DNA of 64,000 nucleotides from the NCBI RefSeq assembly GCF_013248995.1, contig NZ_JABRPK010000002.1, positions 806,001 to 870,000 of the forward strand, written 5' to 3'. Positions 4,216 through 63,405 of this stretch are shown here, piece after piece. Position numbers and translations under genes: made by a program. The stretch is from Frigoribacterium sp. VKM Ac-2836 (lineage in GTDB: Bacteria > Actinomycetota > Actinomycetes > Actinomycetales > Microbacteriaceae). The notes under the pieces are model-generated. The model was not told where the DNA came from and ran no database searches. It saw only the letters and a list, made by a program, of their open reading frames with translations. Numbering within the stretch: position 1 is the first letter of the stretch; each line of letters begins with the position of its first letter.

Positions 4216-4225
4216 GGAGGCGCGG
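4216..4225 (+). repeat. Dispersed 10-mer GGAGGCGCGG, first of 33 exact copies
   Basis: The exact decamer recurs throughout the window. Copies reading GGAGGCGCGG on the plus strand start at 4216, 4961, 11247, 15194, 15875, 18583, 19956, 21029, 25749, 34264, 36235, 36844, 38720, 39431, 41079, 42903, 45758, 50579, 51031, 62390 and 63372. Copies on the minus strand (CCGCGCCTCC on plus) start at 15823, 17647, 19931, 22131, 26333, 38519, 39459, 46548, 48853, 56262, 60756 and 61717. One-mismatch copies include 12121, 22154, 27328, 37341, 48132, 51077 and 57136. A preceding A and a following G or T are preferred, giving AGGAGGCGCGGK. Thirteen exact copies are intergenic. Function unknown; see findings. 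Confidence 0.8.
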
Positions 4226-4238
4226 GCCGACTCCCCGA

Positions 4239-4294
4239 GGCGCCCGAGACCTGGCGCCCGAGACCAGGCGCCCGAGACCAGGCACCCTCAGACC
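4239..4294 (+). repeat. 14-bp tandem repeat, three copies plus a degenerate fourth
   Basis: Units of GGCGCCCGAGACCA repeat at 4239-4252, 4253-4266 and 4267-4280, followed by a diverged unit at 4281-4294. The array overlaps the stop codon of the epimerase gene on the minus strand and the end of a roughly 280-bp spacer after the Lrp-like gene. I see no gene in the rest of that spacer. It may act as a structural gene end or be a short slippage product. Confidence 0.7.
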
Positions 4295-5256
4295 GTGCCG
4301 CGCCTCGCGGAGACGATGCTCTTCAGGGCCTCGTCGAGGTGCGGGTGGACGAACTCGTACCCGCCGTCCACGAGGCGCTCGGGCAGCACCCACCGGCTCT
4401 TGAGCACGAGCTCGGTCTCGGTGCGCAGGACGGCGGTGCCGAGCTCGAGCATCCAGCGCCAGGCGGGCAGGCCGAACGGCACGCCGAGCACGCGGCGCAG
4501 CGTGCGCATCATGGTGCGGTTGTCGCTCGGGTTCGGCGACGACAGGTTGAGCGCGCCCTCGATCGAGTCGTCGTCGCGGGCGAAGCGGATCGCCCCGAGC
4601 ACGTCGTCGACGTGGATCCAGCTGAACTTCTGCCGTCCGCCGCCGCGGCCCTCGCGGTGGTACGTCCCCGCCGCGAGCCGGGCCCGGGTGGCGGGCCACG
4701 GGCCGTCGAGCTGCGGCCCGCCGAGACCTGCTCGCACGAGGTTCATCAGGGGCACGAGAGCGCTGCCGTCGCCCAGCACGATGGCCATGCGCAGGGCGAC
4801 GCGGCGGGTGGCCGGCAGGTCGTCCGAGAAGAACTCGGCCTCCCACGCCGTCGCGACGTCGACCGAGAACCCCGAGCCGATCTCACCGCCCGACTCGGTC
4901 ATCGGCCGGTCCTCGGCGTGCCGGTAGACGGTCGCCGTCGACGAGTTCATCCAGACCCGAGGAGGCGCGGTGCACGCGAGCACCGCCTCCTTCAGTTCGC
5001 GCGTGGTCTCGACGCGTGAGCGCACGATCTCGGCGCGGTTCTCGGGGCCGTAGCGGCAGTTCACGCTCTTGCCGGCGAGGTTGACGAGCAGGTCGGCCCC
5101 GTCGAGCAGCGCGGTGATGCCGGCGGTGTCGCCCCACGAGGCGTCGGGTCCGTGCCGGCCGATCAGGCTGACGCGGGCGCCCTCGGCGCGGAACGCGGCC
5201 GCGAGGTGCTGCCCGATGAAGCCGCTGGCCCCGGCGAGGACGATGTGGTCGGTCAT
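4288..5256 (-). CDS. TIGR01777 family NAD(P)-dependent epimerase
   Basis: 322-residue protein of the extended short-chain dehydrogenase superfamily, SulA/YfcH (TIGR01777) group. The N-terminal Rossmann loop is GASGFIGQHLA (residues 9-19). Family features are LLVNLAGKSVNCRY, WMNSSTATVYRH, and the C-terminal DUF1731-like segment with VPFGLPAWRWMLELG and LVLKSRWVLPERL. The substrate is unknown for the whole family; nucleotide-sugar epimerisation is only a formal possibility. It ends inside a 14-bp tandem repeat. An exact GGAGGCGCGG copy lies within the coding region, read on this strand as Ala-Pro-Pro-Arg. Confidence 0.87.
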   Translation of the reverse strand: MTDHIVLAGASGFIGQHLAAAFRAEGARVSLIGRHGPDASWGDTAGITALLDGADLLVNLAGKSVNCRYGPENRAEIVRSRVETTRELKEAVLACTAPPRVWMNSSTATVYRHAEDRPMTESGGEIGSGFSVDVATAWEAEFFSDDLPATRRVALRMAIVLGDGSALVPLMNLVRAGLGGPQLDGPWPATRARLAAGTYHREGRGGGRQKFSWIHVDDVLGAIRFARDDDSIEGALNLSSPNPSDNRTMMRTLRRVLGVPFGLPAWRWMLELGTAVLRTETELVLKSRWVLPERLVDGGYEFVHPHLDEALKSIVSARRGTV

Positions 5257-11241: not shown

Positions 11242-11453
11242 CGTCAGGAGGCGCGGTGTCCGACGCCGACGCCGGCGACGCCCTCGAGGCGGTCGAGCAG
11301 CGCCCTCTCGTGGTGCGGCGGAGGGCGGGGCGTCGGGTGAGCACCGACCCGGTGCCGGGCAGCGATCCGACGCCCGCGCCCGAACCCGATCGGCAGGGAT
11401 CGAGCGAGAACGACCGACGCCTGCGAGCCGACGTCCCCCCGCACTGGGGCTGA
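11238..11453 (+). CDS. Small acidic/basic hypothetical protein
   Basis: Up to 71 residues; no enzymatic domain recognised. Its ATG overlaps the stop of the helicase-like gene (ATGA), which suggests translational coupling. An alternative GTG at 11256 lies 4 nt after AGGAGG, itself part of a GGAGGCGCGG copy, and would give 65 residues (VSDADAGDALEAV). The C-terminal part ENDRRLRADVPPHWG resembles the short RRLxxDxPPHW tail common in small conserved actinobacterial proteins. Function unknown; probably co-expressed with the upstream gene. Confidence 0.7.
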   Translation: MTSGGAVSDADAGDALEAVEQRPLVVRRRAGRRVSTDPVPGSDPTPAPEPDRQGSSENDRRLRADVPPHWG

Positions 11454-14957: not shown

Positions 14958-16004
14958 ATGAACATCGAGTCGTGGGGTGGAGGCGTCGTCCTCGCTCTCG
15001 TCGCCGCGCTCTGGCTCGTCTATCTCGTGCCCACCTGGCAGCGTCGACGCGAGTACCTCGCGACCGAGCGCAACGCCGTCCGGCTGCAGCAGACCCTGCG
15101 CATCCTCGCCCAGACCGCCGAGGTGCCCGCCGAGGTGCGCGTCGAGGCCAATGCCCGCTCGGTCGCCGACGCGCAGAAGATCCTGCGACACGAGGAGGCG
15201 CGGCGCGAGGCCATCCGGAGGGCTCACGAGGCGGCGCGCCAGCGTGCCGTGACCCGTGAGCTCGCCGCGGCCGCCCCCGTGCTGCGGGCCGCCGACCGCG
15301 ACCCCGCCCTCGCCGCGCGGCGGCTGCGACGCTCCCGCCTGGTCTCGACCGTGGTCCTCGCGCTGAGCGTGGTCGCCGTGGTCGGAGGTGTCGCCGCGGG
15401 CCTGACGTCGTCCTGGGTGCTCGTCGTCGCCGGCCTCGTCTTCGGTGCCGGGGCGATCGCGATGCTCACGCAGCTGGCCGCCGTGTCGAGGGCGCGGGCC
15501 CGCCGAGCGGTCGTCGCTCCCGTGGCCCAACCCCTCAAAGACTTCTCCGGGGTCATGGGCGCGGGCGTCGTCCTCCGCGACGACGAGGCCTCGGCGGAGT
15601 CACGGCTGTGGACGCCCGTGCCCGTCCCGAAGCCCCTTTACCTGCGACGCGGACGTCAGCGTCCCGCTCCCGTGGCGTCGACCGACGCCGCAGCCGCCGA
15701 GTTGCAGCGGGACTCCCGTCGCTCGGTCGAGTCCCTGCGCTCGGCCCAGCACGACGCCCTGCGCGAGGCCGCCCGGGCCGAGGGCGCGCTGCAGTCGACG
15801 CGACGCGCGTCGGTGACCGCGGCCGCGCCTCCTGCCCCGGCCGCCGTCGCCGCGGCCTCCGCCCTCCCCGCCGAGGAGGCGCGGGTCGAGTCGGTCGCCC
15901 CGCCCCGCCCCCCGAGCCGCTTCGCCCGGATGGGCATCATCGACGACCTGCCGCAGTCGGACTTCTCGCTCGACGAGGCCCTGCAGCGCCGTCGCGCGGT
16001 CTGA
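14958..16004 (+). CDS. Conserved actinobacterial membrane protein (Rv0996-like position)
   Basis: 348 residues with one N-terminal membrane helix (GGGVVLALVAALWLVYLVP), a basic cytoplasmic linker with coiled-coil character (RREYLATERNAVRLQQTLR), and two further helices around residues 125-175 (VVLALSVVAVVGGVAAGL and WVLVVAGLVFGAGAIAML). A long Ala/Pro-rich tail ends FARMGIIDDLPQSDFSLDE. No enzyme motif is recognised. Such proteins follow rimJ in other actinobacteria and are sometimes linked to cell-envelope or division functions, which I cannot confirm. The ATG lies 7 nt after TACCTT (14945-14950), so it is probably leaderless. Three exact GGAGGCGCGG copies fall inside it (15194, 15823, 15875). 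Confidence 0.8.
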   Translation: MNIESWGGGVVLALVAALWLVYLVPTWQRRREYLATERNAVRLQQTLRILAQTAEVPAEVRVEANARSVADAQKILRHEEARREAIRRAHEAARQRAVTRELAAAAPVLRAADRDPALAARRLRRSRLVSTVVLALSVVAVVGGVAAGLTSSWVLVVAGLVFGAGAIAMLTQLAAVSRARARRAVVAPVAQPLKDFSGVMGAGVVLRDDEASAESRLWTPVPVPKPLYLRRGRQRPAPVASTDAAAAELQRDSRRSVESLRSAQHDALREAARAEGALQSTRRASVTAAAPPAPAAVAAASALPAEEARVESVAPPRPPSRFARMGIIDDLPQSDFSLDEALQRRRAV

Positions 16005-17625: not shown

Positions 17626-17673
17626 TGGCGTCCTCGGTGACCGGCGCCGCGCCTCCTGCACCATGATGGACGG

Positions 17674-19272
17674 GTGCCTCAGACGACCCCGACCGACGCC
17701 TCGACGCCCCACCTCTCGACCGACCCCGAACTGCTCGCTCGACTGAGGGCCGACCTGGCGTCGTCCGGGTTCACGGTCGAGCGGCTGCAAGGTGCCGACG
17801 CGTGGGGATCGCATGCCGGGGCCGCCCTGTTCCGAGGTGAACGGGTCGCCGCCCGCCGAGCGCTGGCTCGCCGTGCCGACCGCGACTGGTCGATGCGTCC
17901 CACGGCCACGCTCGCGCTGGTGTTCCTGCTGGGCTGTCCTCAGGCCGTCGACGCGGTCGCCGAGGCGTTGCCGACCCTCGGGGTCGACGGCGCGGTCGCT
18001 CTCGGGCTCGTCGCGAGAGAAACCGACGGGGTCCGCGCGCTCGTCGACCTGCGCCCCTACGCGTTCGTCGACGCCTCGGGCGAGGCCAGCTGGTGGATCG
18101 CCTCCGACCTCGGTGAGCTCGTCGTCGAGGGTGCACTGCCTGAGGGCCACGTCCTCGGCGTCGGCGGGGCCTCGGCCACGCTCGCCGGCCTGATGATCTC
18201 GCGCCAGGTCGACCGGGCGCTCGATCTCGGCACGGGCTGTGGAATCCAGGCGCTGCACGCGGCCCGACACGCACGGCACGTGGTCGCCACCGACATCTCG
18301 CGACGGGCCCTCGACTTCGCCGCGTTCAACGCCGCCCTCAACCTCGTCGACGGCATCGAGCTGCGCCTGGGCAGCCTCTTCGAACCCGTCACCGGCGAGA
18401 CCTTCGATCACATCGTCTCGAACCCGCCGTTCGTCATCACGCCCCGAGCCGAGGGCGTCCCCGAGTACGAGTACCGCGACGGCGGAATGGTGGGCGACGA
18501 CCTCGTCGCCTCGGTCGTCGAGGGCCTCGGCCGCCATCTCGCTCCGGGTGGCGTGGCGCAGCTTCTGGGCAACTGGGAGTCCGGAGGCGCGGCCGCGGTC
18601 GCCGGCAAGCGGGGCGCCTATTCGGTCGCCGACTGGGCGGCCCGGGGCGACGTGCCCGTCGACGTCTGGGTCGTCGAGCGCGAGATCCAGGACCCCACCG
18701 CGTACGCCGAGACCTGGATCCGGGACGGCGGCACCCGGCCCGGCACCCCCGACTTCGAGCGTCTCTACGAGGCGTGGCTCGGCGACTTCGAGGCCCGAGA
18801 CGTCGTCGAGGTCGGGTTCGGCTACCTGACCGTGCGCCGACCCGTGGGCGACGCGAGACCGCCCGTGGTGCGCACGGAGCGCCTCCTCGGTGGCCTCGGC
18901 CAGAACGACGTCGGACTCGGCGCCCATCTGCTCGGAACCCTCGACGCGATCGACCTGCTGCGCGGCCTCGACGACGAGCAGCTGGCCGCGCGCCGCTTGG
19001 TCGTGGCCGGTGACGTCACCGAAGAACGGCACTATTGGCCGGGCAACGACGACCCGACGGTCATCTCGCTGCGGCAGGGAGGCGGCTTCGCCCGGACCGT
19101 CGACTCGGGCACGGCCCTGTCGGCGCTGGTCGGTGCCTGCGACGGCGAGCTCAGCGTGGGCGCGATCATCGGTGCACTCGCCCAGCTTCTCGCGGCGGAC
19201 GAGCACGAGCTGCGGGCCGAGCTGCTGCCGCAGGTGCGCGAGCTCGTGACGACGGGCATGCTGCGCCTCTGA
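17674..19272 (+). CDS. Class I SAM-dependent methyltransferase, DUF7059-type N-terminus
   Basis: 532 residues. The N-terminal third (DPELLARLRADLASSGFTV onward) is a helical domain common in actinobacterial relatives. The middle is a Rossmann methyltransferase with RALDLGTGCGIQALHAA, HVVATDISRRALDFAAFNA, and the catalytic-type motif VSNPPFVI. NPPF/Y motifs occur in enzymes that methylate amide or exocyclic amino nitrogens, such as PrmC and rRNA or DNA N-methyltransferases. The C-terminal 130 residues form a winged-helix-like region. Exact substrate unknown. The start is GTG, 6 nt after CATGAT, possibly leaderless. Confidence 0.85.
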   Translation: MPQTTPTDASTPHLSTDPELLARLRADLASSGFTVERLQGADAWGSHAGAALFRGERVAARRALARRADRDWSMRPTATLALVFLLGCPQAVDAVAEALPTLGVDGAVALGLVARETDGVRALVDLRPYAFVDASGEASWWIASDLGELVVEGALPEGHVLGVGGASATLAGLMISRQVDRALDLGTGCGIQALHAARHARHVVATDISRRALDFAAFNAALNLVDGIELRLGSLFEPVTGETFDHIVSNPPFVITPRAEGVPEYEYRDGGMVGDDLVASVVEGLGRHLAPGGVAQLLGNWESGGAAAVAGKRGAYSVADWAARGDVPVDVWVVEREIQDPTAYAETWIRDGGTRPGTPDFERLYEAWLGDFEARDVVEVGFGYLTVRRPVGDARPPVVRTERLLGGLGQNDVGLGAHLLGTLDAIDLLRGLDDEQLAARRLVVAGDVTEERHYWPGNDDPTVISLRQGGGFARTVDSGTALSALVGACDGELSVGAIIGALAQLLAADEHELRAELLPQVRELVTTGMLRL

Positions 19273-19926: not shown

Positions 19927-19969
19927 CGACCCGCGCCTCCTGGTCCGTCGGACGAGGAGGCGCGGGTCG
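19927..19969. terminator. Hairpin built from two inverted GGAGGCGCGG copies
   Basis: A 15-bp perfect stem, with CGACCCGCGCCTCCT (19927-19941) pairing to AGGAGGCGCGGGTCG (19955-19969). The loop of 13 nt itself has GTCC/GGAC complementarity. It lies upstream of the TetR gene start and ahead of the stop of no convergent partner, so it could insulate TetR from read-through or act as a structured DNA or RNA site. One of two such paired copies in the window. Confidence 0.65.
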
Positions 19970-20891: not shown

Positions 20892-21129
20892 CGTCGGCCC
20901 TTTCTGCCGGGAGCCCGGCGGGTCTGGGGATGCGCGGATCGGGCTGCGCACCTCCTTCGTTTCTACTAGTCGCCGGGCGTCCGTGGTCGGACACGCGTGG
21001 CCCGGGTGGACTTCGTCCCGACCTCTCGGGAGGCGCGGTGCCGGCCGCGATCCGCTGGGAGCCGTGTCGGAGGTGACGGGTAGCTTCGGGCTGACCGGGG
21101 TCGAGCGTCGACCCCCGAGAGAGGCCACC

Positions 21130-21869: not shown

Positions 21870-22313
21870 GCCGTCGGGTGTTTCATCCGGATTACGCGCT
21901 CGTCCGACTCACCTGGAAGTCACCCGCCATGGCGGGGGCCCGGCGAGGTACGGTGTAGTGCGCTCACCGGCTGGTTACCGGGGCGCCCGTTCCCGACGAG
22001 CGGCTGTCGAACCCAGCGTGGTCTCCTGATCCGACTCCGTGAGGTCGTCGGCCGTGGGTCCGGTGGGCACGCCCTGGTCCGAGCTCTGCTCGTCGACCGG
22101 GGCGTGCCCTCTTCTCATTCCCCTCGTCGACCGCGCCTCCTTCGGGTCGCGGGTCGCGCCTCCTCGTGATTTACTTGAGATCCTCTCACCTCGTGGAGGT
22201 TCAGGGCACGAGGCGAGGGACCGGCCGCGGGGCCGTCCCGACGTCCCCGCGGTCGGACGACCCGTCCGTGGTCGTCGCCGGCGGCCCGGTCGATGGTGCA
22301 GGGTTGACTCATC
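21870..22313. other. Intergenic region before the Ski2-like helicase
   Basis: About 440 bp without a supportable gene. It holds the upstream promoter area of the flavin reductase gene, an exact CCGCGCCTCC copy at 22131 and a one-mismatch copy at 22154 in direct repeat, and the AT-richer stretch GTGATTTACTTGAG near 22168 that may belong to the helicase promoter. I find no RNA gene or terminator. Confidence 0.5.
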
Positions 22314-25732: not shown

Positions 25733-26266
25733 TCAGAAGAGCGTCGCGGGAGGCGCGGGCGGGGTCGCCGGCGCCGTGATCGGGTCGGTCGTCGCGACCG
25801 GCGCACCGGGCCAGCCAGGGCCGGACGGCACCTCGGTGCGGTTCTGGAACGCCGTGGCCGCACCTCGGGCCCGTACGTCGGCCGCCTCGTTCATCTCGTG
25901 GCCGACGTGACCGCGGACCCACTCGAATCGCACCTTCCGACCGGCCAGCGCCGAGTCGAGCTCTTTCAGGATCTCGACGTTGAGCACGGGCTTGCCGTCG
26001 GCCTTCCGCCAGCCCTTGCGCTTCCAGCCGGGCATCCACTCGGTGCAGGCCTTGATCGTGTACTGGCTGTCGCACAGGATGTGCAGGTCGTCGTCGGTGC
26101 CGGCCGTGGCGCGCAGCAGCTCGAGCACGGCGGTCAACTCGCCCTGGTTGTTCGTGGCGCGCGGCCAGCCGCCGGCCGCCCATCGCTCGTCGTCGACGTA
26201 CCAGGCCCAACCGGCGGGGCCGGGGTTGCCGAGGGCCGATCCGTCTGCTGCGGCGGTGATGGTCAT
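25733..26266 (-). CDS. rnhA: Ribonuclease HI
   Basis: 177-residue endonuclease that cleaves the RNA strand of RNA-DNA hybrids. The catalytic carboxylates are visible: Asp8 in AAADGSALGNPGPAGW, Glu in TNNQGELTAVLELL, and Asp in LHILCDSQYTIKACTEW. The handle segment GWKRKGWRKADGKPVLN and the late VRGHVGHEMNEAADVRA, with His and Asp, complete the fold. The C-terminal 35 residues are a Pro/Ala-rich tail outside the domain and contain a GGAGGCGCGG copy. An AAGGAG site precedes the ATG. Confidence 0.95.
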   Translation of the reverse strand: MTITAAADGSALGNPGPAGWAWYVDDERWAAGGWPRATNNQGELTAVLELLRATAGTDDDLHILCDSQYTIKACTEWMPGWKRKGWRKADGKPVLNVEILKELDSALAGRKVRFEWVRGHVGHEMNEAADVRARGAATAFQNRTEVPSGPGWPGAPVATTDPITAPATPPAPPATLF

Positions 26267-26401
26267 GCGGGGTGCTCCTTGCGTCGACGGGGTGCCGGTC
26301 CACGGTAACGTGCCGGGCGCGACCGACCCGACCCGCGCCTCCTGCAGGGGCGTCGGAGCGGGGGCGTCGCCTCCGGTGCGTGGCGGACGGGACGGGCCGG
26401 C

Positions 26402-38218: not shown

Positions 38219-38935
38219 ATGACTTCCGCGCTGCCTCCGACCCCCTCGACCGCGCCTTCGACCCGAGCGCTGCGGGTCGTCGCCGTGTCGGGCACCCTCA
38301 GCACGCCGTCCAAGACCGACGCCCTCGTCCACGAGATCGTCACGGCGCTCGGCGACGTCCTGCCGATCGAGGCGCACGTGATCCGCGTCAGCGAACTCGG
38401 TCCGCTCCTCGCCGGCGCACTCACCCGCGACCAGCTCGACGAGCGGGTCGAGCGCGAGCTGGTCGCCATCGAGACCGCCGACCTGCTGATCGCCGCCTCG
38501 CCCGTGTACCGCGCCTCCTTCACCGGGCTCTTCAAGCACCTGTTCGACTTCGTCGAGCAGTACGCGCTCGTCGACGTGCCCGTTCTGCTCGCCGCGACGG
38601 GCGGAAGCGAACGCCACGCGCTGATCATCGAGCACTCGCTGCGGCCGCTGTTCGGGTTCTTCCAGGCGCTGACGCTGCCGCTCGGCGTGTACGCGCACAC
38701 GACCGACTTCACGGCGACCGGAGGCGCGGAGAAGTACGCGGTCACGGCGCCCCTGCTGCAGGAGCGCATCCGCCACGCGATCCAGCGCGGCCTGCCCCTG
38801 ATCCGGTCGAGCATCGCCGAGAAGGGGCGCATCGAGCGGAGCCTCGACGGCGGCGGCACGGAGGACGGCCTGTCGGTCGACGACCTGCGAGCGAGCGAGT
38901 TCGACGCGTCGACCCCGACACGGCTGTTCAGCTGA
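38219..38935 (+). CDS. NADPH-dependent FMN reductase (CE1759-like)
   Basis: 238-residue flavodoxin-fold reductase that supplies reduced FMN, usually to a luciferase-like monooxygenase. Seen: VVAVSGTLSTPSKTDALV (FMN phosphate loop), LIAASPVYRASFTGLFKHLFD, and LLAATGGSERHALIIEHSLRP. The length and FFQALTLPLGVYA suggest the LLM-partnered CE1759 subfamily, whose partner is normally adjacent, but none lies nearby. An in-frame ATG at 38210 would add three residues. Two GGAGGCGCGG copies are inside the gene (38519, 38720), read as Arg-Ala-Ser and Gly-Gly-Ala. Confidence 0.88.
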   Translation: MTSALPPTPSTAPSTRALRVVAVSGTLSTPSKTDALVHEIVTALGDVLPIEAHVIRVSELGPLLAGALTRDQLDERVERELVAIETADLLIAASPVYRASFTGLFKHLFDFVEQYALVDVPVLLAATGGSERHALIIEHSLRPLFGFFQALTLPLGVYAHTTDFTATGGAEKYAVTAPLLQERIRHAIQRGLPLIRSSIAEKGRIERSLDGGGTEDGLSVDDLRASEFDASTPTRLFS

Positions 38936-39429: not shown

Positions 39430-39469
39430 AGGAGGCGCGGTTCCGGTCGTCGCCGGCACCGCGCCTCCT
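39430..39469. terminator. Hairpin of two inverted GGAGGCGCGG copies between convergent genes
   Basis: Left arm 39430-39446 pairs with right arm 39453-39469 over 17 positions with a single mismatch, and the loop is TCGTCG. The arms are AGGAGGCGCGGT and ACCGCGCCTCCT plus CCGG extensions. It sits exactly between the stops of the + hypothetical gene and the - GH51 gene, so it most likely terminates both. The second of the two paired copies of the dispersed motif. Confidence 0.8.
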
Positions 39470-41021: not shown

Positions 41022-41106
41022 GAGTCTCCTAGGTGAGGGGATCGGCGTGCGGGGGACGGGGACGAGGGGCGGGGACGAGGAGGCGCGGGCCGGCGGACCG
41101 GGCGGG

Positions 41107-42018: not shown

Positions 42019-42989
42019 TTCTGGGCTCCCTTGCGGTTGCGGGCCGTGATGCTGAACTGCGCGATCGAGATGACGACGATGACCGCGAAGAAGATGTACG
42101 AGATCGCCGACGAGTACCCGAAGCGGTAGCCGGTGAACCCGGTGTCGAAGATGTACTGCACGGCCGAGCGGGTGCTGCCCGCCGGGCCGCCGGTGGTCAT
42201 CTGGTAGATCTGGTCGAACACCTTCAGCGACGCGAGCACCTGCAAGATGACGATCAGTCCCGTGGTCGGTCCCAGTTGCGGGATGGTGATCGACAGCAGT
42301 GACCGCCAGCGCCCGGCGCCGTCGAGGGACGCGGCCTCGTACTGCTGGTCGGGGATGTTCTGCAACGCCGCGAGGTACAACAAGAAGTTGAAACCGACCG
42401 TCCACCAGACCGTGGTCGCGACCACGGCGATCATGGCGGTGTCGGGGTCCTGCAACCAGGCGGGCTGCGGCAGTCCGAGCGTGCCGAGGACGTTGTTGAT
42501 CGGGCCGAGGGTCGGACTGTAGAGCTGGATCCAGAACAGCGAGACCACCGTCGAGGCGAGCAGGTACGGCAGGAAGAAGCTCAGCCGCCAGAGCCACTGG
42601 CCGGGCAGCCCGGTGTTGACGAGGATCGCGAGCACGAGGGCGACGACGACGAGGGGGATCGTGCTGAGCACGGTGAACCAGAGCGTGTTGAGCATCGAGC
42701 GCCACATGTCGCCGTCGGCGAAGGCCTCGGCGTAGTTCGCCACGCCGATCAGCTCGCCGCCCTGGCCGGTCAGGCTCTGGCCGGTGAAGCTGAGGTAGAA
42801 GCCGTGCAGCAGCGGCCAGACCAGGAAGACCGCGAAGAGCACGGTGAACGGGGCGGCGAAACCCCACCCGATGCGGTTGTCGGACGGGCCCTTGCGCCTG
42901 CGGGAGGCGCGGCTCCGGTCCGTCGCGCGGGTGTCGGACCGCGCGCGGTCGGCGGTGGCCCGGGGGGCCTTGACCGTGGTGGAGGTCAC
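42015..42989 (-). CDS. Carbohydrate ABC transporter permease (MalF-type)
   Basis: 324-residue inner-membrane permease of the CUT1 family. A basic N-terminal tail (about 40 residues with RSRASRRRKGPSD) is followed by six helices. The EAA loop is YEAASLDGAGRWRSLLSITIPQLGP, and LLASTVVSLFWIQLYSPTLGPIN fits sugar permeases. It pairs with the MalG-type protein in a 4-bp overlap. An in-frame GGAGGCGCGG copy (42903) encodes part of the N-terminal tail. Confidence 0.94.
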   Translation of the reverse strand: MTSTTVKAPRATADRARSDTRATDRSRASRRRKGPSDNRIGWGFAAPFTVLFAVFLVWPLLHGFYLSFTGQSLTGQGGELIGVANYAEAFADGDMWRSMLNTLWFTVLSTIPLVVVALVLAILVNTGLPGQWLWRLSFFLPYLLASTVVSLFWIQLYSPTLGPINNVLGTLGLPQPAWLQDPDTAMIAVVATTVWWTVGFNFLLYLAALQNIPDQQYEAASLDGAGRWRSLLSITIPQLGPTTGLIVILQVLASLKVFDQIYQMTTGGPAGSTRSAVQYIFDTGFTGYRFGYSSAISYIFFAVIVVISIAQFSITARNRKGAQK

Positions 42990-45636: not shown

Positions 45637-48600
45637 TCAGGCGGAGGCGAGGACCTTGACGATGCGCTGCAGCGAGACGCTCTCGCTCGGGCGCAGGTCT
45701 TGGGCGAACAGGCTGAGGCGGAACTCCTCGAGCATCCACCGGGCGCGGACCACCGCAGGAGGCGCGGTGTCGGCCGGCGGGAACGTCCCGCCCGCGGCCT
45801 CGTACCGCTCGGTCGCCTGCTGCACCTCGCTCAGCCAGACGCGGTCCCGCCCGGGGTTCTCGAGCAGTTTCGCCGTGCGATTCGTGATACCCACCAGGTA
45901 CACCGGGACGCGGTGCAGCTGCTGGAGCCCCGTCTGCGACACGAAGCCCGGACGGATCAGCCGGTCACGTTGCTGCCGCATGTCGGTCAACGCGGCGAGC
46001 AGGGTCATCGACGTCGCGCCCTTGAGCGCCTTGTCGGCGTCGCGGGCCGCGGTCAGGGTGCGGGCGACGAGCGACACCGTCTGGAACATCTGGTCCATCA
46101 CGGCCCCCGACACCCGGTCGCGGGTCGAGAGGAACTCCTTCTTGGTCATCACCATGCCGTCGGGCTTCACCCGGAACAACACGTCGTCGACGACCGCCAC
46201 GAGGCAGTCCGCGAAGAGCGCCGACGTGTTCTGGTACGGGCTCGTCGCGAGGATCAGCTTCTCGGCGCTCGTCAGGTGCTGCTGCACGTAGGCCACGGGC
46301 GACGGGGTCGCCAGCATCAGCAGGCGCCGCACGCCCTTCGGTGTCGCGAGGGCCTGGTCGGCGGGCGTGGCCATCAAGGTGATCGAGACCGAGTCGCCGT
46401 GGTCGACCAGCGCCGGGTACGCGCGGATCACCGTGTCGCCGTGGCGGGTGTCGACGACGGCGGGGAGCTCGTCGAAGTCCCAGGACGTCAGCCCTTCTCG
46501 CTCGATCGAGCTGGTGGGGCGGGGCGCGACGGGCGAGCTGTCGCCACCCGCGCCTCCTCGTCCGCGACCCCGGCCGCGCTCGTCTCGCCCGCCGCGCTGC
46601 GTGACGCGCGCGACGCTGTCGCGCGTGGCGTCGCGCAGCCGGTGCTGCAGCGCGTCGAGGTCTTTGTCGGCCCCGACCGTGCGGCCCCGCTCGTCGACCA
46701 CGGCGTACGTGACCCGCAGGTGCGCGGGAACACGGTGCAGGTCGAAGTCGTCGGTCGAGACGGGCGTGTAGGTGAGCTTCTTGATCGCCGCGGCCACGGT
46801 CGCCGTGAACGGCTCGCCGACGTCGGCCGGCGGGGCGTCGGGCAGCTCGTCGGTGATCTTCGACGCCCAGTCGGCCGCGGGCACGACGTTCTTGCGGATC
46901 TGCTTCGGCAACGACTTGATCAGCGACGTGACCAGTTCGTCGCGCAACCCCGGCACCTGCCAGTCGAACCCGACCGGACGGAGGCGCGGCAACAGCGGCA
47001 ACGGGACGATGACGGTCACGCCGTCGTCGTCGGCTCCCGGCTCGAACTTGTAGCGCAGGGTGAGCGTCTGGTCGCCCTGTCGCCACGTGCTCGGGAAACC
47101 CTGTTCGTCGACGTCGGGTTCGTCGTCGCCCAGCAGGTCGGAGGCGGTCATGGTGAGCAGGTCGGGGGTGTCGACCTTCGCCCTGCGCCACCACCCCTCG
47201 AAGTCGCGCATGCTGGCGATGTCGGCCGGGATGCGCCGCTGGAAGAATTCGAACGCGGCGTCGCCGTCGACCAGGATGTCGCGGCGGCGCGTGCGCTCCT
47301 CGACCTCGGTCAGATCGCGGATCAGCTGCCGGTTCTTCTCTTCGAAGGCCTGGTGCCCCTCCCAGTCACCTTCGACGAGCGCGTGTCGGATGAACAGCTC
47401 GCGGGCGTAGGCGGGGTCGATGCGCGAGAACTGGATGCGCCGACGCTCGACGATCGGCACGCCGTAGAGCGTGACGCGTTCGTAGGCGACGACGGCCCCC
47501 TGCTTCTTCTCCCAGTGGGGCTCGCCGTAGCTGCGCTTCACCAGGTCGGGTGCGAGCGGTTCGGCCCAGGCCGGGTCGATCGATCCGGCGACCCGGGCGA
47601 ACAGGCGGCTGGTCTCGACCAGCTCGGCGGTCATCACGGCCGCCGGCGGCTTCTTCGCGAGGCTGCTCCCCGGGAAGATCAGGAACCTCGTCTGGCGGGC
47701 GCCGACGAAGTCCTTCTTCTGCGGGTCGAAGAGACCGATCTGGCTGAGCAGACCGGCCAGCAGGCTGCGGTGCACGCCGTCGGGGTTCGCGCTGCGCTCA
47801 CCGATGTGCAGGCCGAGGGGCCTGGCCGCACGGCTGAGCTGGCGGTAGACGTCCTGCCACTCGCGGATGCGCAGGTAGTTGAGGAACTCGTCGCGGCACA
47901 GGCGCTTGAAGGCGTTGCCGCTGAGCTCTCTCTGCTTGTCCTCGAGGTACTCGAACAGGTTGAGCAGCGTGAGGAAGTCACCCTTGGGGTCGCGGAAGCG
48001 CGAGTGCTTCTCGTCGGCCTGGGCACGTCGCTCGAGCGGGCGCTCGCGGGGGTCTTGAATGCTCAGTGCCGAGACGATGGCGAGCACCTCGCGCGTCGTG
48101 CCCTGCGTCTTCGACTCGACCACCATGCGGGCGAGGCGCGGATCGATCGGCAGTCGCGTGAGCTGCTTGCCGACGCGCGTGATCTGGCCGCCCTGGGTGA
48201 CGGCTCCGAGCTCGCGCAGCAGGTCGAGACCGTCCTTGATGCCGCGGGAGTCGGGTGGTTGCAGGAACGGGAACGCGGCGATGTCGCCGAGGTTGAGCGA
48301 GATCATCTGCAGGATCACCGCGGCGAGGTTGGTCCGCAGGATCTCGGGCTCGGTGAACTCGGGACGCTTCTCGAAGTCGGTCTCGCTGTAGAGGCGGATC
48401 GCGATGCCGCTGCTCGTACGACCGGAGCGACCGGACCGCTGGTTCGCGCTGGCTTGCGAGATGGCCTCGATCGGCAGGCGTTGCACCTTGGCCCGGGTCG
48501 AGTACCGGCTGATGCGTGCGGTGCCGGCGTCGATCACGTACTTGATGCCGGGCACGGTCAGGCTGGTCTCGGCGACGTTGGTCGCGAGGACGATGCGCCT

Positions 48601-49524
48601 CCGGGTGCCGGCGGTCGTGCTGGGCTGGAAGACCCGGTGCTGGTCGGCGGCGCTCAACCGGCCGTAGAGCGGCAACACCTCGGTGTGCGGCAGGTTGCGG
48701 CCGCGGATGCTCTCTTCCGCGTCGCGGATCTCGTTCTCGCCGCTGAGGAAGACGAGGACGTCGCCGCTCGACTCGCGCGCGAGCTCGTCGAGGGCCTCGT
48801 TGATGCCCTGCAGGTAGTCCTTGTCGTCGGCGCGCTGCCTGCGGTCGCCGCCCCGCGCCTCCTGCCGGTCGCCCTGTCGACCCGCGGGGCGGTCGTCGTC
48901 GTCGAGGTCGCCGTCGTCGTCGCTCGTGGAGTCGTCGGCGACGAGCGGTCGGTAGCGGATCTCGACCGGGTAGGTGCGGCCGGAGACCTCGACGATGGGC
49001 GCGTCGCCGAAGTGCTTCGAGAACGACTCCGGGTCGATCGTCGCGCTGGTGATGATCAGCTTGAGATCGGGGCGTCGGGGCAGCAGCTGCTTGAGGTAGC
49101 CGAGCAGGAAGTCGATGGCGAGGCTGCGCTCGTGGGCCTCGTCGATGATGATCGTGTCGTAGCGCTCGAGCTCGCGGTCGAAGTGGATCTCGTTGAGCAG
49201 GATGCCGTCGGTCATCAGCTTGATCTGCGTGTCGGCACCGACCTTGTCGGTGAACCGCACCTGGTAGCCGACCACGCCGCCGACCTCGTCCCCGAGTTCT
49301 TCGGCGATGCGTTCGCTGATCGTGCGGGCGGCGATGCGACGGGGTTGGGTGTGCCCGATCTTGGTGCGTCCGAGTTCGAGGCAGATCTTCGGCAGCTGGG
49401 TGGTCTTGCCCGAGCCGGTGGCGCCCGCGACGATGACGACCTGGTTGTCACGGATCGCCGCGGCGATGTCGTCGCGCCTCTGGCTGACCGGCAGCTCGGC
49501 GGGATACGTGATGGTGGGGATCAT
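45637..49524 (-). CDS. hrpA: ATP-dependent RNA helicase HrpA
   Basis: 1295-residue DEAH-box RNA helicase. Walker A VAGATGSGKTTQLPKICLEL (about residues 29-48), TQPRRIAARTISERIAEEL, the DEAH box TIIIDEAHERSLAIDFLLGY, SATID, VLVFLSGENEIRDAE, and motif VI ISQASANQRSGRSGRTSSG. OB-fold and DUF3418 parts follow. An Asp-rich insert near residue 205 (STSDDDGDLDDDDRP) and a Gly/Arg-rich insert near 985 ([14 protein letters not shown]) are unusual, and both regions carry GGAGGCGCGG copies. The ATG at 49524 follows GGAGGGC; TACGAT lies 9 nt upstream. HrpA proteins act in mRNA processing and in rescue of stalled ribosomes. Confidence 0.95.
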   Translation of the reverse strand: MIPTITYPAELPVSQRRDDIAAAIRDNQVVIVAGATGSGKTTQLPKICLELGRTKIGHTQPRRIAARTISERIAEELGDEVGGVVGYQVRFTDKVGADTQIKLMTDGILLNEIHFDRELERYDTIIIDEAHERSLAIDFLLGYLKQLLPRRPDLKLIITSATIDPESFSKHFGDAPIVEVSGRTYPVEIRYRPLVADDSTSDDDGDLDDDDRPAGRQGDRQEARGGDRRQRADDKDYLQGINEALDELARESSGDVLVFLSGENEIRDAEESIRGRNLPHTEVLPLYGRLSAADQHRVFQPSTTAGTRRRIVLATNVAETSLTVPGIKYVIDAGTARISRYSTRAKVQRLPIEAISQASANQRSGRSGRTSSGIAIRLYSETDFEKRPEFTEPEILRTNLAAVILQMISLNLGDIAAFPFLQPPDSRGIKDGLDLLRELGAVTQGGQITRVGKQLTRLPIDPRLARMVVESKTQGTTREVLAIVSALSIQDPRERPLERRAQADEKHSRFRDPKGDFLTLLNLFEYLEDKQRELSGNAFKRLCRDEFLNYLRIREWQDVYRQLSRAARPLGLHIGERSANPDGVHRSLLAGLLSQIGLFDPQKKDFVGARQTRFLIFPGSSLAKKPPAAVMTAELVETSRLFARVAGSIDPAWAEPLAPDLVKRSYGEPHWEKKQGAVVAYERVTLYGVPIVERRRIQFSRIDPAYARELFIRHALVEGDWEGHQAFEEKNRQLIRDLTEVEERTRRRDILVDGDAAFEFFQRRIPADIASMRDFEGWWRRAKVDTPDLLTMTASDLLGDDEPDVDEQGFPSTWRQGDQTLTLRYKFEPGADDDGVTVIVPLPLLPRLRPVGFDWQVPGLRDELVTSLIKSLPKQIRKNVVPAADWASKITDELPDAPPADVGEPFTATVAAAIKKLTYTPVSTDDFDLHRVPAHLRVTYAVVDERGRTVGADKDLDALQHRLRDATRDSVARVTQRGGRDERGRGRGRGGAGGDSSPVAPRPTSSIEREGLTSWDFDELPAVVDTRHGDTVIRAYPALVDHGDSVSITLMATPADQALATPKGVRRLLMLATPSPVAYVQQHLTSAEKLILATSPYQNTSALFADCLVAVVDDVLFRVKPDGMVMTKKEFLSTRDRVSGAVMDQMFQTVSLVARTLTAARDADKALKGATSMTLLAALTDMRQQRDRLIRPGFVSQTGLQQLHRVPVYLVGITNRTAKLLENPGRDRVWLSEVQQATERYEAAGGTFPPADTAPPAVVRARWMLEEFRLSLFAQDLRPSESVSLQRIVKVLASA

Positions 49525-50569: not shown

Positions 50570-50661
50570 CGAAGCACAGGAGGCGCGGGCTGGGCGGGTC
50601 ACCGGGTGTCGCGTCGTAGGATCGCGACAGACTGCACGTCAACGGAGACGGAGAAGACACG

Positions 50662-52269
50662 ATGTCATCAGCACCCAGCCCCCGAGGCCACGCCACCGCG
50701 TCGGTCGCGGCCATCCTCGCCGAGTCGGCCGGCCGGTACCCCGACGACGTCGCCGTGATCGTCGGGCCCACCTCGACCACCTACGCCGAGCTCTGGCAGC
50801 AGACCCTGGCCTACGCCGGGGCCCTCCGCGCCCGGGGCGTCGGTCCAGGGGACCGGGTCGCCATGCTCGTCCCGAACGTCGCGGACTTCCCCCGCGTCTA
50901 CTACGCGACGCTCGCGCTCGGCGCGGTCGCCGTTCCCGTCCACGCCCTCCTCAAGCGACACGAGATCGAGTACGTGCTGCGCGACAGCGGCTCCCGCCTG
51001 CTCGTCTGCGCCGCACCGCTGCTCGGTGAAGGAGGCGCGGGAGCACAGCTCGCGGGGGTCGACGTCCTGACCGTGCTCGCGCCTCCTGCCGGTCAGGAGG
51101 ACGAGGGGCCCGACCGCCTCGAGGACCTCGCCGCGGCCGCCGAACCTCTCGACACCTACGTGCCCCGCGACCCGTTCGACACCGCCACGATCCTCTACAC
51201 GAGCGGCACCACGGGGCAGCCGAAGGGGGCCGAGGGGTCGCACCTCGCGCTCATCGAGCAGGTCAACACCAACCTGATGACGACGTTCGACATGCACCGC
51301 GGCGACGTGCTGCTCGGGGCCCTGCCGCTGTTCCACACCTTCGGGCAGACCTGCACGATGAACACCGGGTTCCGGGTCGGCGCGACCATCGTCATGCTGC
51401 CGAAGTTCGACGGCGACGCCGCTCTCGCCGCCATGGTCGAGCACGGCTGCGAGGTGTTCATGGGGGTGCCCACGATGTACATGGCCCTCATCGCCGCGGC
51501 CACCCGCAGCGAGGCGCGTCCGCCGCTGCGATACGCCGTCTCGGGCGGGGCGTCTCTGCCGCTCGCGGTGCTCGAGAAGTTCCAGCAGGTGTACGACGCT
51601 CCGATCCACGAGGGATACGGGCTGACCGAGACCTCGCCCGTCGCGACCTTCAACCACGTGGGGGTGCCACCCCGCCCCGGCACCATCGGGACGCCGATCT
51701 GGGGTGTCGACGTCGAGATCGCGGACCAGCACGTCGCGGACTCGATCGTGCTGCTGCCGCACGGCGAGATCGGCGAGCTCGTGATCCGGGGCCACAACCT
51801 GATGAACGGCTACCTCGACCGTCCCGACGACACGGCCAAGGCGATCGTCGACGGCTGGTTCCGCACCGGCGACCTCGGCACCAAGGACGACGACGGCTAC
51901 CTGACCATCGTCGACCGCACCAAGGACATGATCATCCGCAACGGCTACAACGTGTACCCGCGGCAGGTCGAAGAGGTGCTCGCGCAACACCCCGACGTCA
52001 CGATGGCCGCCGTCTTCGGCGTACCCCACGAGCTGCACGGCCAAGAGATCGAGGCGGCTGTCGTCCTCCGTGACGGGGCCACGGCGACGCCCGACGAGCT
52101 GGTCGCGTTCGTCGCCGACGAGATCGCCGCCTACAAGTTCCCTCGCGTCGTCCACGTCCTGGACGCCCTGCCGCTCGGCCCCAGCGGCAAAGTGCTGAAG
52201 CGCGAGCTCGTCGACCGTTTCTCGGTGGCCCCGTCCGCCGTCGAGGAGGGGGTCGCTACGTCCCGCTGA
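50662..52269 (+). CDS. Long-chain acyl-CoA ligase-type AMP-binding enzyme
   Basis: 535-residue ANL-superfamily adenylating enzyme, which activates a carboxylic acid as acyl-AMP and transfers it to CoA. Motif A3 is ILYTSGTTGQPKGAEGSH, A5 YGLTETSPV, A7 GWFRTGDLG, and A8 IVDRTKDMIIRNGYNVYP with PSGKVLKREL carrying the catalytic Lys. Medium- or long-chain fatty acids are the usual substrates. A GGAGACGGAG site precedes the ATG. A loop near residues 120-150 holds two inverted GGAGGCGCGG-type copies (51031 and the one-mismatch 51077). Confidence 0.92.
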   Translation: MSSAPSPRGHATASVAAILAESAGRYPDDVAVIVGPTSTTYAELWQQTLAYAGALRARGVGPGDRVAMLVPNVADFPRVYYATLALGAVAVPVHALLKRHEIEYVLRDSGSRLLVCAAPLLGEGGAGAQLAGVDVLTVLAPPAGQEDEGPDRLEDLAAAAEPLDTYVPRDPFDTATILYTSGTTGQPKGAEGSHLALIEQVNTNLMTTFDMHRGDVLLGALPLFHTFGQTCTMNTGFRVGATIVMLPKFDGDAALAAMVEHGCEVFMGVPTMYMALIAAATRSEARPPLRYAVSGGASLPLAVLEKFQQVYDAPIHEGYGLTETSPVATFNHVGVPPRPGTIGTPIWGVDVEIADQHVADSIVLLPHGEIGELVIRGHNLMNGYLDRPDDTAKAIVDGWFRTGDLGTKDDDGYLTIVDRTKDMIIRNGYNVYPRQVEEVLAQHPDVTMAAVFGVPHELHGQEIEAAVVLRDGATATPDELVAFVADEIAAYKFPRVVHVLDALPLGPSGKVLKRELVDRFSVAPSAVEEGVATSR

Positions 52270-55744: not shown

Positions 55745-57748
<2,004 letters not shown>

Positions 57749-60689: not shown

Positions 60690-60770
60690 GGCTCCACGCT
60701 AGCCGCTGGGCGTCACGCGGGGACCCGGGACGTCACATGGCGGAACAGAGCCGACCCGCGCCTCCTGCGG

Positions 60771-62438
60771 TCACTTCCAGCTGGGGACCCAGTAGTGCAG
60801 CCGGATGAACTCCCAGTCCTCGAGCTGGGCCGTCCACAGGGGGTAGAAGAAGACCGACACCGCCACGGCGACCACGACCACGATCGTCGTGACGCCGATG
60901 CCGCTGAGTCGCCGGGACCGGTCGTCGGTGCGCCGGCCGAGGACGATGCCGAGCACCGCCGCCAGGCCGAGCACGAGGTAGGGCTCGAAGGCGATCGTGT
61001 AGAACTGGAACACCGTCCGGTCGGTGAACGCGAGCCAGGGCAGGTAGGCCGCCGCGACGCCGACGAGGATCGCCCCGTACCGCCATTCGCGGTACCTGAC
61101 CACGCGGTAGACGAGGTACAGGCAGGCCGCGACCGCCGCGTACCAGATCAGCGGATTGGCGACCGAGGTGATCGCCTCGCCGCACCGGGCCACGTCGCAG
61201 CCGCCCTGGCCCTCGTCGAACCCCTGGTAGTACATGCTCGTCGGTCGCAGCATCAGCAGCCAGGTGAGCGGGTTCGCCTGGTACGCGTGGGGGGTGTGCA
61301 GGCCGACGTTGAAGCCGTACACGCCTGCTTGGTAGTGCCAGAAGTTCTGCACGACGTCGGGCACCCAGGCCAGGGCGCCCGTCCACCGGGTGCCGCCCTC
61401 CTCGACCCAGCTGCGGTAGTAGCCGCCCGACGTCACGAACCAGCCGGTCCAGCTCGCGAGGTAGGCCACCACGGCGATGGGCACGGTGAGCAGGAAGCTC
61501 ACCGGCGCCTGCTTGAAGAGCGTGCCCGACAGCCAGAACTCCACCCCGGCCCGGCGGCGGGCCAGCATGTCGACCACGACCGTGTAGACCGCGAAGAACG
61601 CCAGGAAGTACAGGCCGTTCCACTTGACGGCCGTCGCCAGCCCGCACATCAGCCCGGCCGTCACCAGCCAGGGACGCGCCCAGAGCGCGGGACCCCAGGC
61701 GATGTCGCGACCGGCACCGCGCCTCCTCGCCCGCCAGGCCTCGAGCCGCCTCGCGCTCTGCCGGCGGTCGAGCAGCACCGCCGCGAAGGCCAGCAGGCCG
61801 AAGAACATGACGAAGTTGTCGAGCAGCGCCACCCGCGACAGGACGATCGCGTGCCCGTCGATCGCGAGGAAGAACCCCGCCAGCGTGCCGAGCAGCGTCG
61901 ATCGCAGCAGAAGCGACCCGATGACCGCCACCAGGGCGACTGCGAGGACGCCCACGATCGCCGTGCTGATCCGCCAGCTCGCGGGGTTCTCGGGGCCGAC
62001 CGCCGCCATGCCGAGGCCGATCAGCCACTTGCCGAGGGGCGGGTGCGCGACGAACGAGGGTGCGGCGAGGAACCCGTCGACCCCGCCGGCGGCGAAGGTC
62101 GGGTCGTAGTCGGCCGGCCACGACCCCTCGTAGCCCAGGTTGAACAAGGACCAGGCGTCCTTGACGTAGTACGTCTCGTCGAACACGAGCGTCGCGGGCG
62201 AGTTCAGGTGCCACAGCCGCAGCACCGCCGCGAGCACCGTGACCGCGAGGGGGCCCGCCCAGGCCCAGACGCGCCTCCGGGTCGGGGTGCGCAGCACGCG
62301 ACCCCACCAGGCGTCGAGCCGGGTCGGCGGAGCCTCGCTCGCGGGGACGACGGTCGTGTCCACCGCCGGCGGACGGGCAGGAGGCGCGGTGCCGGTGTCG
62401 ACGAGCGCGTCGAATTCGCGCTCGGGCCCGGTCGTCAT
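60771..62438 (-). CDS. pmt: Dolichyl-phosphate-mannose-protein mannosyltransferase
   Basis: 555-residue polytopic membrane glycosyltransferase that uses polyprenyl-phosphate-mannose to O-mannosylate secreted proteins during Sec export. The first loop has the catalytic acidic pair in LVFDETYYVKDAWSLFNLGYE. Other features are AHPPLGKWLIGLGMA, AIDGHAIVLSRVALLDNFV, ATAVKWNGLYFLAFF and the late FYTIAFEPYLVLGLA. About eleven hydrophobic segments. It is divergent from rsmI, an arrangement also found in M. tuberculosis (Rv1002c/Rv1003). The ATG is 6 nt after TACGAT. GGAGGCGCGG copies are at 61717 and 62390, in a basic loop and the N-terminal tail. Confidence 0.94.
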   Translation of the reverse strand: MTTGPEREFDALVDTGTAPPARPPAVDTTVVPASEAPPTRLDAWWGRVLRTPTRRRVWAWAGPLAVTVLAAVLRLWHLNSPATLVFDETYYVKDAWSLFNLGYEGSWPADYDPTFAAGGVDGFLAAPSFVAHPPLGKWLIGLGMAAVGPENPASWRISTAIVGVLAVALVAVIGSLLLRSTLLGTLAGFFLAIDGHAIVLSRVALLDNFVMFFGLLAFAAVLLDRRQSARRLEAWRARRRGAGRDIAWGPALWARPWLVTAGLMCGLATAVKWNGLYFLAFFAVYTVVVDMLARRRAGVEFWLSGTLFKQAPVSFLLTVPIAVVAYLASWTGWFVTSGGYYRSWVEEGGTRWTGALAWVPDVVQNFWHYQAGVYGFNVGLHTPHAYQANPLTWLLMLRPTSMYYQGFDEGQGGCDVARCGEAITSVANPLIWYAAVAACLYLVYRVVRYREWRYGAILVGVAAAYLPWLAFTDRTVFQFYTIAFEPYLVLGLAAVLGIVLGRRTDDRSRRLSGIGVTTIVVVVAVAVSVFFYPLWTAQLEDWEFIRLHYWVPSWK

Positions 62439-62484
62439 CGGGCCATCGTAATTGTGCGGTCCGGGGCCGGGGGACAATGGGCGG
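62439..62484. promoter_or_regulatory. Compact divergent pmt / rsmI promoter
   Basis: Only 46 bp separate the two start codons. The leftward -10 TACGAT (complement of 62445-62450) and rightward -10 GACAAT (62473-62478) each lie 6 nt from their start codon. Both messages would be leaderless, and each polymerase would cover the other promoter, so transcription of the two genes may interfere. Confidence 0.65.
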
Positions 62485-63312
62485 GTGATCGTGCTCGCCG
62501 CCACCCCCATCGGTAACCTCGGCGACGCCAGCCGCCGCCTGATCGAGACGCTGTCGAACGCCGAGGTCGTCGCCGCCGAGGACACCCGCACGGCGATCCA
62601 CCTCATGCGCGCCCTGGGCGTCGAGAACCGCCCCCGCCTGATCGCCCTGCACGAGCACAACGAGCGCGAGAAGGCGGGCGAGATCGTCGAGCTGGCCCGC
62701 GCCTCCGACGTGGTCGTGCTCACCGACGCCGGCATGCCCGCCATCAGCGACCCCGGGTTCCCTCTCGTCGAGGCCGCGGCCGCCGCGGGCGTCACCGTCA
62801 CGTCGATCCCCGGCCCGTCCGCGGTGCTCACCGCGCTCGCCGTCTCCGGACTGCCCACCGACCGCTTCAGCTTCGAGGGCTTCTTGCCGCGGAAGCAGGG
62901 CGACCGGCTGCGCGTGCTGGGCGCGCTCGCCGACGAGCGCCGCACCATGGTGTTCTTCGAGTCGCCGCACCGCCTGGCCGATTCGCTGGGCGACCTCGTG
63001 ACGGCCCTCGGGGCCTCGCGCCGGGTTGTGGTCTGCCGCGAGCTGACCAAGCTGCACGAAGAGGTGCGCCGTGGCAGCGCGGCCGAGCTCGCCGAGTGGG
63101 CGGCCGAGGGCGTCCGCGGCGAGATCTGCATCGTGGTCGAGGGCGCCCCCGAGCGCGTCGTCGACCTGGCCGCCGGACTCGCCCAGGTGCAGGCCCTCGT
63201 GGCCGACGGCACCCGGCTGAAAGAGGCGACCACCGACGTGGCCGCCGCCACCGGCCTGTCGAGGCGCGACCTCTACCAGGCCGCCCTCGCCGCCCGCCCG
63301 CCCCGCGCTTGA
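62485..63312 (+). CDS. rsmI: 16S rRNA (cytidine(1402)-2'-O)-methyltransferase
   Basis: 275-residue SAM-dependent enzyme methylating the ribose of C1402 in the 16S decoding centre. Tetrapyrrole-methylase fold: VLAATPIGNLGDASRRL at the start, VVAAEDTRTAIHLMRALG, the HEHNE segment LIALHEHNEREKA, VVVLTDAGMPAISDPGFP, IPGPSAVLTALAVSGLP and FFESPHRLADSL. All are RsmI signatures. The start is the GTG at 62485, 6 nt after GACAAT. It is divergent from pmt, as in mycobacteria. Confidence 0.96.
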   Translation: MIVLAATPIGNLGDASRRLIETLSNAEVVAAEDTRTAIHLMRALGVENRPRLIALHEHNEREKAGEIVELARASDVVVLTDAGMPAISDPGFPLVEAAAAAGVTVTSIPGPSAVLTALAVSGLPTDRFSFEGFLPRKQGDRLRVLGALADERRTMVFFESPHRLADSLGDLVTALGASRRVVVCRELTKLHEEVRRGSAAELAEWAAEGVRGEICIVVEGAPERVVDLAAGLAQVQALVADGTRLKEATTDVAAATGLSRRDLYQAALAARPPRA

Positions 63313-63405
63313 GGCGTCGCGTACCCCTCGCAGGGCGGCGGGTGCAAGCTCGACGGAGGTGCGTGTCCGGAGGAGGCGCGGCCCACCACGATCAGGAGGT
63401 ACGAC

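Follow-up and report, generated by a model that had tools for sequence, protein, structure and literature searches.

An asymmetric, dispersed DNA word of Frigoribacterium with features of a self-DNA uptake sequence

The DNA uptake sequences (DUS) of the Neisseriaceae, as described in the accessible parts of two papers (PMC3630211, PMC12616744), are words of about 10–12 bp that reach up to thousands of copies, come in dialects, form inverted pairs that serve as terminators and are associated with type IV pilus machinery. The uptake signal sequences (USS) of the Pasteurellaceae likewise combine high copy number with dialects, and the accessible part of the same source gives these two families as the only ones in which uptake-sequence tagging is known (PMC12616744). 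Titles and abstract openings of the open-licence literature name no uptake or overrepresented word in Actinobacteria or Microbacteriaceae. Among actinobacteria, Micrococcus luteus becomes competent with ComEA and ComEC homologues and Flp/tad pili, and the accessible part of the paper concerned holds no mention of an uptake word (PMC6370729). Here, we analyzed a 64-kb stretch (hereafter, the window) of the 3.27-Mb genome of Frigoribacterium sp. VKM Ac-2836, located at C3:806001–870000, in which an original prediction had reported a dispersed decamer, GGAGGCGCGG, and likened it to uptake sequences and to Chi- and KOPS-type sites. Our preferred reading, which we regard as evenly poised between right and wrong, is that the 11-mer form of this decamer, AGGAGGCGCGG, is a genus-wide self-DNA uptake-type sequence.

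GGAGGCGCGG, which is asymmetric by direct reading, occurs in 36 exact copies in the window (22 on the plus and 14 on the minus strand), compared with a mean of 1.61 and a maximum of 6 in 100 dinucleotide shuffles and with Markov expectations of 0.51 (order 3) and 0.68 (order 4). The strong excess that had been reported is thereby borne out against chance expectations of 0.5–1.6, while the reported count of 33 (21 plus, 12 minus) was too low, and one additional copy (345–354) lies outside the range of 4216–63381 to which the word had been assigned. No other 10-mer of the window shows a larger excess, and the runners-up overlap GGAGGCGCGG. Genome-wide, the word is found 684 times on the plus and 670 times on the minus strand (1354 in total, or one per 2.4 kb), versus 22 and 30 times (52 in total) for a control consisting of the same word read backwards. 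In a 404-kb sample made up of the window and 17 other stretches, 175 copies were counted where an order-3 Markov model expects 3.6. All 16 Frigoribacterium genomes examined carry the word in abundance, with 842–1725 copies compared with 41–148 for the controls.

Several lines of evidence support the proposal, already made in the original prediction, that selection acts on the DNA rather than on the encoded protein, with biased gene transfer as the other possible agent. In the predicted genes of a 604-kb sample, 141 copies were present, whereas shuffling synonymous codons within genes left 14.3 ± 3.4 (at most 22 in 100 shuffles), and an origin in codon usage, which had been named as a possible refutation, was not borne out. 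The coding copies, of which 62 are in sense and 79 in antisense orientation, use six registers very unevenly (46, 33, 28, 22, 11 and 1), and the use of several reading registers was likewise as predicted. The 1323-aa protein of the window matched 16 loci, including nine from Frigoribacterium (84–98% identity over the best segment), two from Curtobacterium (68–69%) and one from Microbacterium (57%), which assigns the host to Frigoribacterium (Microbacteriaceae). Third codon positions in near relatives were identical at 134 of 140 sites inside 13 window copies versus 23454 of 28522 outside, these sites not being independent of one another. Of the 56 copies that could be aligned in the four near relatives, 50 were exact, where flank identity predicts 0.42 and anagrams scored 157 of 426. 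As to whether copies insert or drift at orthologous positions, many presence/absence differences among the aligned loci are in-place substitutions, joined by some indels (e.g. at 38720). Exact copies become scarcer with growing distance, so that copies are held in the short term and turned over in the long term.

The word is longer than ten bases, as had been suggested. An A precedes the core in 70% of the 175 copies of the 404-kb sample and in 26 of the 36 window copies, giving the extended form AGGAGGCGCGGK, and the same 175 copies display downstream preferences for G/T, G/T and C, followed farther out by G, T and C in turn. AGGAGGCGCGG can be described as a strict core, GGAGGCGC, with a weak downstream extension of roughly KKCVSGTC. 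These weaker outer preferences hold both for the 141 copies in genes and for 74 intergenic copies that are unpaired, so that hairpins alone do not account for them. Of the one-mismatch forms, those at core positions 9–10 are enriched, and (A)GGAGGCGC is the probable functional core.

According to a crude home-made gene caller, which defines all coding and intergenic assignments given here, 96 of the 237 copies in the 604-kb sample lie in the 12.4% of the DNA called non-coding. The same caller places 14 of the 36 window copies between genes, close to the 13 or so originally claimed, and the claimed intergenic enrichment holds. The density of intergenic copies per kb was 1.44 between converging, 1.53 between tandem and 0.81 between diverging genes. 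Among opposite-orientation neighbors no more than 60 bp apart, 15 inward-facing pairs were identified versus five outward-facing ones, with a spacing mode of 27. Eleven of the 15 inward pairs are intergenic, comprising 22 of the 96 intergenic copies, and none of the 11 is farther than 68 bp from the nearest stop codon (nine at 9–28 bp, the remaining two at 52 and 68 bp). In the window, the two predicted hairpins at gene borders, 19931(-)/19956(+) and 39431(+)/39459(-), were recovered together with a third inverted pair, 15823/15875, within a gene. A Shine-Dalgarno role for AGGAGG was rejected, only three of 95 intergenic copies being at start-codon distance. DUS and USS are found on both strands without replication polarity, and GGAGGCGCGG resembles them in this respect: ten stretches past a cluster of exact parS-like sites (C3:167–170 kb), assumed to belong to one replichore, contained 61 plus and 58 minus copies.

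The taxonomic distribution of the word revealed a sharp restriction and a dialect. Among 199 Microbacteriaceae genomes from 85 genera, AGGAGGCGCGG (the A-form) is abundant in a single genus, in all four sampled genomes of Frigoribacterium (g1), with 487–921 copies versus 7–22 for the control. A weak excess was seen in genome G069 of genus g55 (A-form 78 vs 27, T-form 24 vs 8), whose stretches yielded no clear motif, and all other genomes of this sample were near control. Of 296 genomes across the phylum, only that of the window was strongly enriched, the others reaching at most about 2.4-fold where the control count was at least 5. A second form, CTGGAGGCGCGG (the T-form), is present in two named Curtobacterium loci and, among 299 family genomes, is high in three of the six genomes of genus g32 (388, 428 and 409 copies vs 15–18), which we infer to be Curtobacterium. 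Over 298 kb of these three genomes, the extended site reads CGGMCTGGAGGCGCGG and occurs as single copies and in nine palindromic pairs. The T-form was absent from the top words of a single g32 stretch (L048) and emerged once stretches were pooled. The T-form represents a shifted dialect of AGGAGGCGCGG in a second genus, the putative Curtobacterium.

Genes for a pilus and for DNA transport are present in the source genome. The cluster at C3:483–496 kb encodes PilB with an MshEN domain, a second T2SSE ATPase, a PilC-type T2SSF protein, PilD, PilM, PilO and a pilin with the motif GFTLIE, together with two proteins whose N_methyl matches fall under the family cut-off, one of which reads as basic past residue 50, its start being uncertain. 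ComEA, with HHH_3 and SLBB domains, adjoins ComEC at C1:860–864 kb. All 20 genomes tested have ComEC-type proteins, and 17 of them have PilM. Flp_Fap had no match in the two Frigoribacterium genomes tested. As a separate observation, a single 1161-aa ORF in L088 (10782–14267) joins a ComEC domain to a DNA polymerase III delta C-terminal domain, representing either a comEC–holA fusion or a matter of frame or assembly.

A second word, CGGATGCCGC (core GGATGCC; stretches L127–L141, L145, L059 and L108–L110), is widespread in the family: 38 of the 85 genera have one or more genomes in which it exceeds the control at least 5-fold (with pseudocounts). It reaches 2441 copies (G155, 2441 vs 71; G116, 1702 vs 50; G077, 1358 vs 36) and is at background in the four sampled Frigoribacterium genomes. 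Its median enrichment was 6.2 in genomes with PilM (n = 93, the four Frigoribacterium genomes left out) versus 1.65 in those without (n = 102), in a comparison that ignores phylogeny. Tentatively, and with the balance of our judgment tilting against it, the whole family might use genus-specific self-DNA words to steer natural transformation in these Gram-positive bacteria, CGGATGCCG-type words in many genera and GGAGGCGCGG-type words in Frigoribacterium (A) and Curtobacterium (T), which would constitute a third independent origin of such tags and the first outside the Proteobacteria. Other over-represented words were also encountered. In genus g63 (L059, L108–L110, L137, L138 and L145), GGTCTCGATA/TATCGAGACC, which may be dispersed or form one array, occurs 17 times in 140 kb versus 0.1 expected. 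Genus g5 (L049, L113, L114 and L142–L144; 120 kb) displays a modest excess of GCAGGATGC (21 vs 2.8) and GCGCAGGAGC (15 vs 1.6), possibly another dialect. Fifteen GTGGGCGTGGGC-type words in the 20 kb of L045 (G031:C1:100001–120000) are probably a local repeat array, and such words dropped from the top list after the pool had been widened by two stretches and clustered copies discounted.

Of the parallels drawn in the original prediction, uptake sequences fit best, in copy number, intergenic enrichment, inverted pairs near stop codons, dialect and the presence of pilus and com genes, and the original interpretation is partly supported. As far as the accessible parts of the papers cited above describe the DUS of the Neisseriaceae, the likeness extends to word length, copy number, dialects, inverted pairs near gene ends and type IV pilus genes, whereas the sequence is unrelated, the Frigoribacterium host is Gram-positive with 70% GC, and no ComP relative was identified in Frigoribacterium. 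USS consist of a core word with weaker flanking positions, and the word resembles those of the Pasteurellaceae in this organization as well as in copy number and dialects, but differs from them in sequence and phylum, with a predicted minor-pilin receptor on the USS side only. M. luteus shares with Frigoribacterium its phylum and the ComEA/ComEC homologues and differs in its Flp/tad pili, given the two Frigoribacterium genomes unmatched by Flp_Fap. The highly iterated palindrome HIP1 of cyanobacteria, an octamer of unclear role, is also a very abundant short word, while GGAGGCGCGG is asymmetric and enriched between genes.

We propose that a cell-surface DNA-binding protein, most likely part of the type IV pilus or close to it, would favor word-bearing DNA. 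Owing to this preference, same-genus DNA would enter competent cells by way of ComEA and ComEC at a higher rate and then be recombined, and the resulting traffic would spread and repair copies wherever protein sequence and expression allow. Inward-facing pairs behind genes may have been co-opted as hairpins, probably aiding the end of transcription, and the second genus, presumably Curtobacterium, would read CGGMCTGGAGGCGCGG, a shifted dialect, so that DNA would pass less freely from one genus to the other. The word would, by analogy, work like an uptake sequence; we do not class it as a member, since preferential uptake is a functional proof that lies beyond sequence analysis.

A number of observations weigh against an uptake role. 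A drive model predicts near-miss forms, and at core positions 1–8 most one-mismatch forms were about as common as expected or rarer, apart from slight excesses at positions 6 and 7. In five farther congeners, 18 of 61 aligned copies were exact (the flanks predict 0.09, and anagrams scored 72 of 424), the mean identity at motif positions equaled that of the flanks (0.795 and 0.790), and many copies had no alignment to the window (e.g. 15 of 23 in L012). In Curtobacterium, one of 12 aligned copies was exact, with motif identity below that of the flanks (0.575 vs 0.658). The T-form is low in the other three g32 genomes (G176, G268 and G305: 30, 48 and 18 vs 7, 17 and 17), and in the T-form-rich ones 18 of 41 copies of TGGAGGCGC form the nine palindromes, eight of them of one length, which look like repetitive extragenic palindromic (REP) elements. 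ComEC and PilM are also found in genera without AGGAGGCGCGG, and g5, the nearest genus by PilM identity (66–67%), has neither AGGAGGCGCGG nor CGGATGCCGC in excess. CGGATGCCGC is enriched at least 5-fold in 26 of the 102 genomes without a PilM match and less than 2-fold in 20 of the 93 with one; a Flp pilin was found in two of 12 tested CGGATGCCGC-rich genomes without PilM. Such lineages may have lost their pili or use other uptake filaments, or else the words serve an intracellular protein, and the abundance of CGGATGCCGC in these genomes leaves room for a DNA-binding role other than uptake. Titles and abstract openings in the competence literature report no uptake or transformation in these genera.

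The source strain itself adds a further point on the same side, as its dprA matches lie in two pieces 18.5 kb apart. The pieces are separated by a low-GC prophage (G000:C1:604243–622724; L150:4243 into L151) with serine recombinase, terminase, portal, capsid and tape-measure genes and a helicase/primase-like AAA protein, and the strain may therefore process incoming DNA poorly, its relatives notwithstanding. The prophage contains no copy of GGAGGCGCGG, a depletion that is not significant because only 2.85 copies are expected from composition. Depletion as a general mark of foreign DNA was rejected: L029, whose five scanned proteins include a glycosyltransferase and a GH25 protein, has no copy versus 6.3 expected, and no clean core/accessory rule emerges because L091, with ATP synthase genes, is as poor (one copy vs 7.4).

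An alternative that we consider unlikely, though it deserves serious weight, is that the word is the site of an intracellular DNA protein, such as a nucleoid-associated protein, SMC or a recombination factor, which would need sites at intervals of roughly 2 kb on whichever strand. Selection would maintain these sites, and the protein would drift in specificity between genera. The spread of copies along the chromosome without polarity, the strict core and extended logo that coding and intergenic copies share, and the abundance of CGGATGCCGC in the 26 genomes without a PilM match are all consistent with such a protein, which would not readily explain the inward pairs near stop codons or the strong excess in a single genus.

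Improbable, in our estimation, is a scenario in which dispersed palindromes, either terminator hairpins or elements resembling REP and bacterial interspersed mosaic elements (BIMEs), seeded the genomes and left single copies as decayed halves. REP elements and BIMEs are palindromic and nearly all in intergenic DNA. The putative Curtobacterium copies partly resemble them, with eight of the nine palindromic pairs sharing one spacing, and the Frigoribacterium pairs spaced near 27 commonly have GGTGCC arms; yet 141 of the 237 Frigoribacterium copies sit in genes, many presence/absence differences are in-place substitutions with some indels, and 74 of the 96 intergenic copies are unpaired. That these unpaired copies are decayed hairpin halves was rejected, their best second-arm matches being close to those of permuted controls (3 vs 1.1 at 9/10 and 4 vs 7.2 at 8/10).

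We hold it very doubtful that the word is a polar site for RecBCD/AddAB/AdnAB or FtsK. Chi is a short, asymmetric, dispersed word with an orientation bias along the replichore, and FtsK-orienting polar sequences (KOPS) and SpoIIIE recognition sequences (SRS) are polarized towards dif. Copy number and genus-specific wording are similar, and the word shares the short, asymmetric and dispersed character of Chi, but the near-equal strand counts past the parS cluster, against which polarity was judged, dif not being located, lack any replication-strand bias, and copies are enriched between genes; this part of the original comparison is accordingly disfavored. An artefact of chance, composition or codon usage has next to no chance of being correct, since, although copies become denser as GC increases (Spearman 0.37, compared with 0.60 for anagrams), the shuffles, the reversed-word and Markov controls and the tenfold lower synonymous-shuffle counts refute it.

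The window copies are listed in Table 1. The longest gap between them spans 26343–34263, and the 4-kb bin of lowest GC in the window (28001–32000, 64.1%) falls in this gap.

Table 1. Exact copies of GGAGGCGCGG in the window; "exact n/m" gives the number of aligned Frigoribacterium loci in which the copy is intact
Position	Strand	Location	Exact n/m	Remarks
345..354	-	coding		
4216..4225	+	intergenic		
4961..4970	+	coding		
11247..11256	+	intergenic		5 bases past ORF end at 11241
15194..15203	+	coding		
15823..15832	-	coding		outward-facing inverted pair with 15875
15875..15884	+	coding		pairs with 15823
17647..17656	-	intergenic		
18583..18592	+	coding		
19931..19940	-	intergenic		outward-facing inverted pair with 19956
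19956..19965	+	intergenic		pairs with 19931
21029..21038	+	intergenic, call uncertain		within longer alternative ORF 19989-21482
22131..22140	-	intergenic		
25749..25758	+	coding		
26333..26342	-	intergenic		
34264..34273	+	coding		
36235..36244	+	coding	3/3	
36844..36853	+	coding	3/3	
38509..38518	-	coding	7/8	
38720..38729	+	called coding	2/8	indel-rich region
39431..39440	+		6/9	inward-facing inverted pair with 39459, converging genes either side
39459..39468	-		6/9	pairs with 39431
41079..41088	+	intergenic	3/9	
42903..42912	+	coding	3/9	
45758..45767	+	coding	7/9	
46548..46557	-	coding	5/9	aligned position in Curtobacterium L017: CCT then core
46980..46989	+	coding	5/9	
48853..48862	-	coding	7/9	
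50579..50588	+	intergenic	1/2	
51031..51040	+	coding	3/9	
56262..56271	-	coding	5/8	
60756..60765	-	intergenic	2/2	
61717..61726	-	coding		
62380..62389	+	coding		
62697..62706	-	coding		
63372..63381	+	intergenic		

If uptake were confirmed, AGGAGGCGCGG would be the first self-recognition DNA tag outside two Gram-negative families. A comparable actinobacterial system, if true, would add a monoderm to the two known cases and allow the origin of such tags, the change of their dialects and the fencing of gene exchange to be followed there. Should the word serve a purpose other than uptake, its presence about every 2.4 kb throughout the genus would still indicate a DNA-binding system without a known match.

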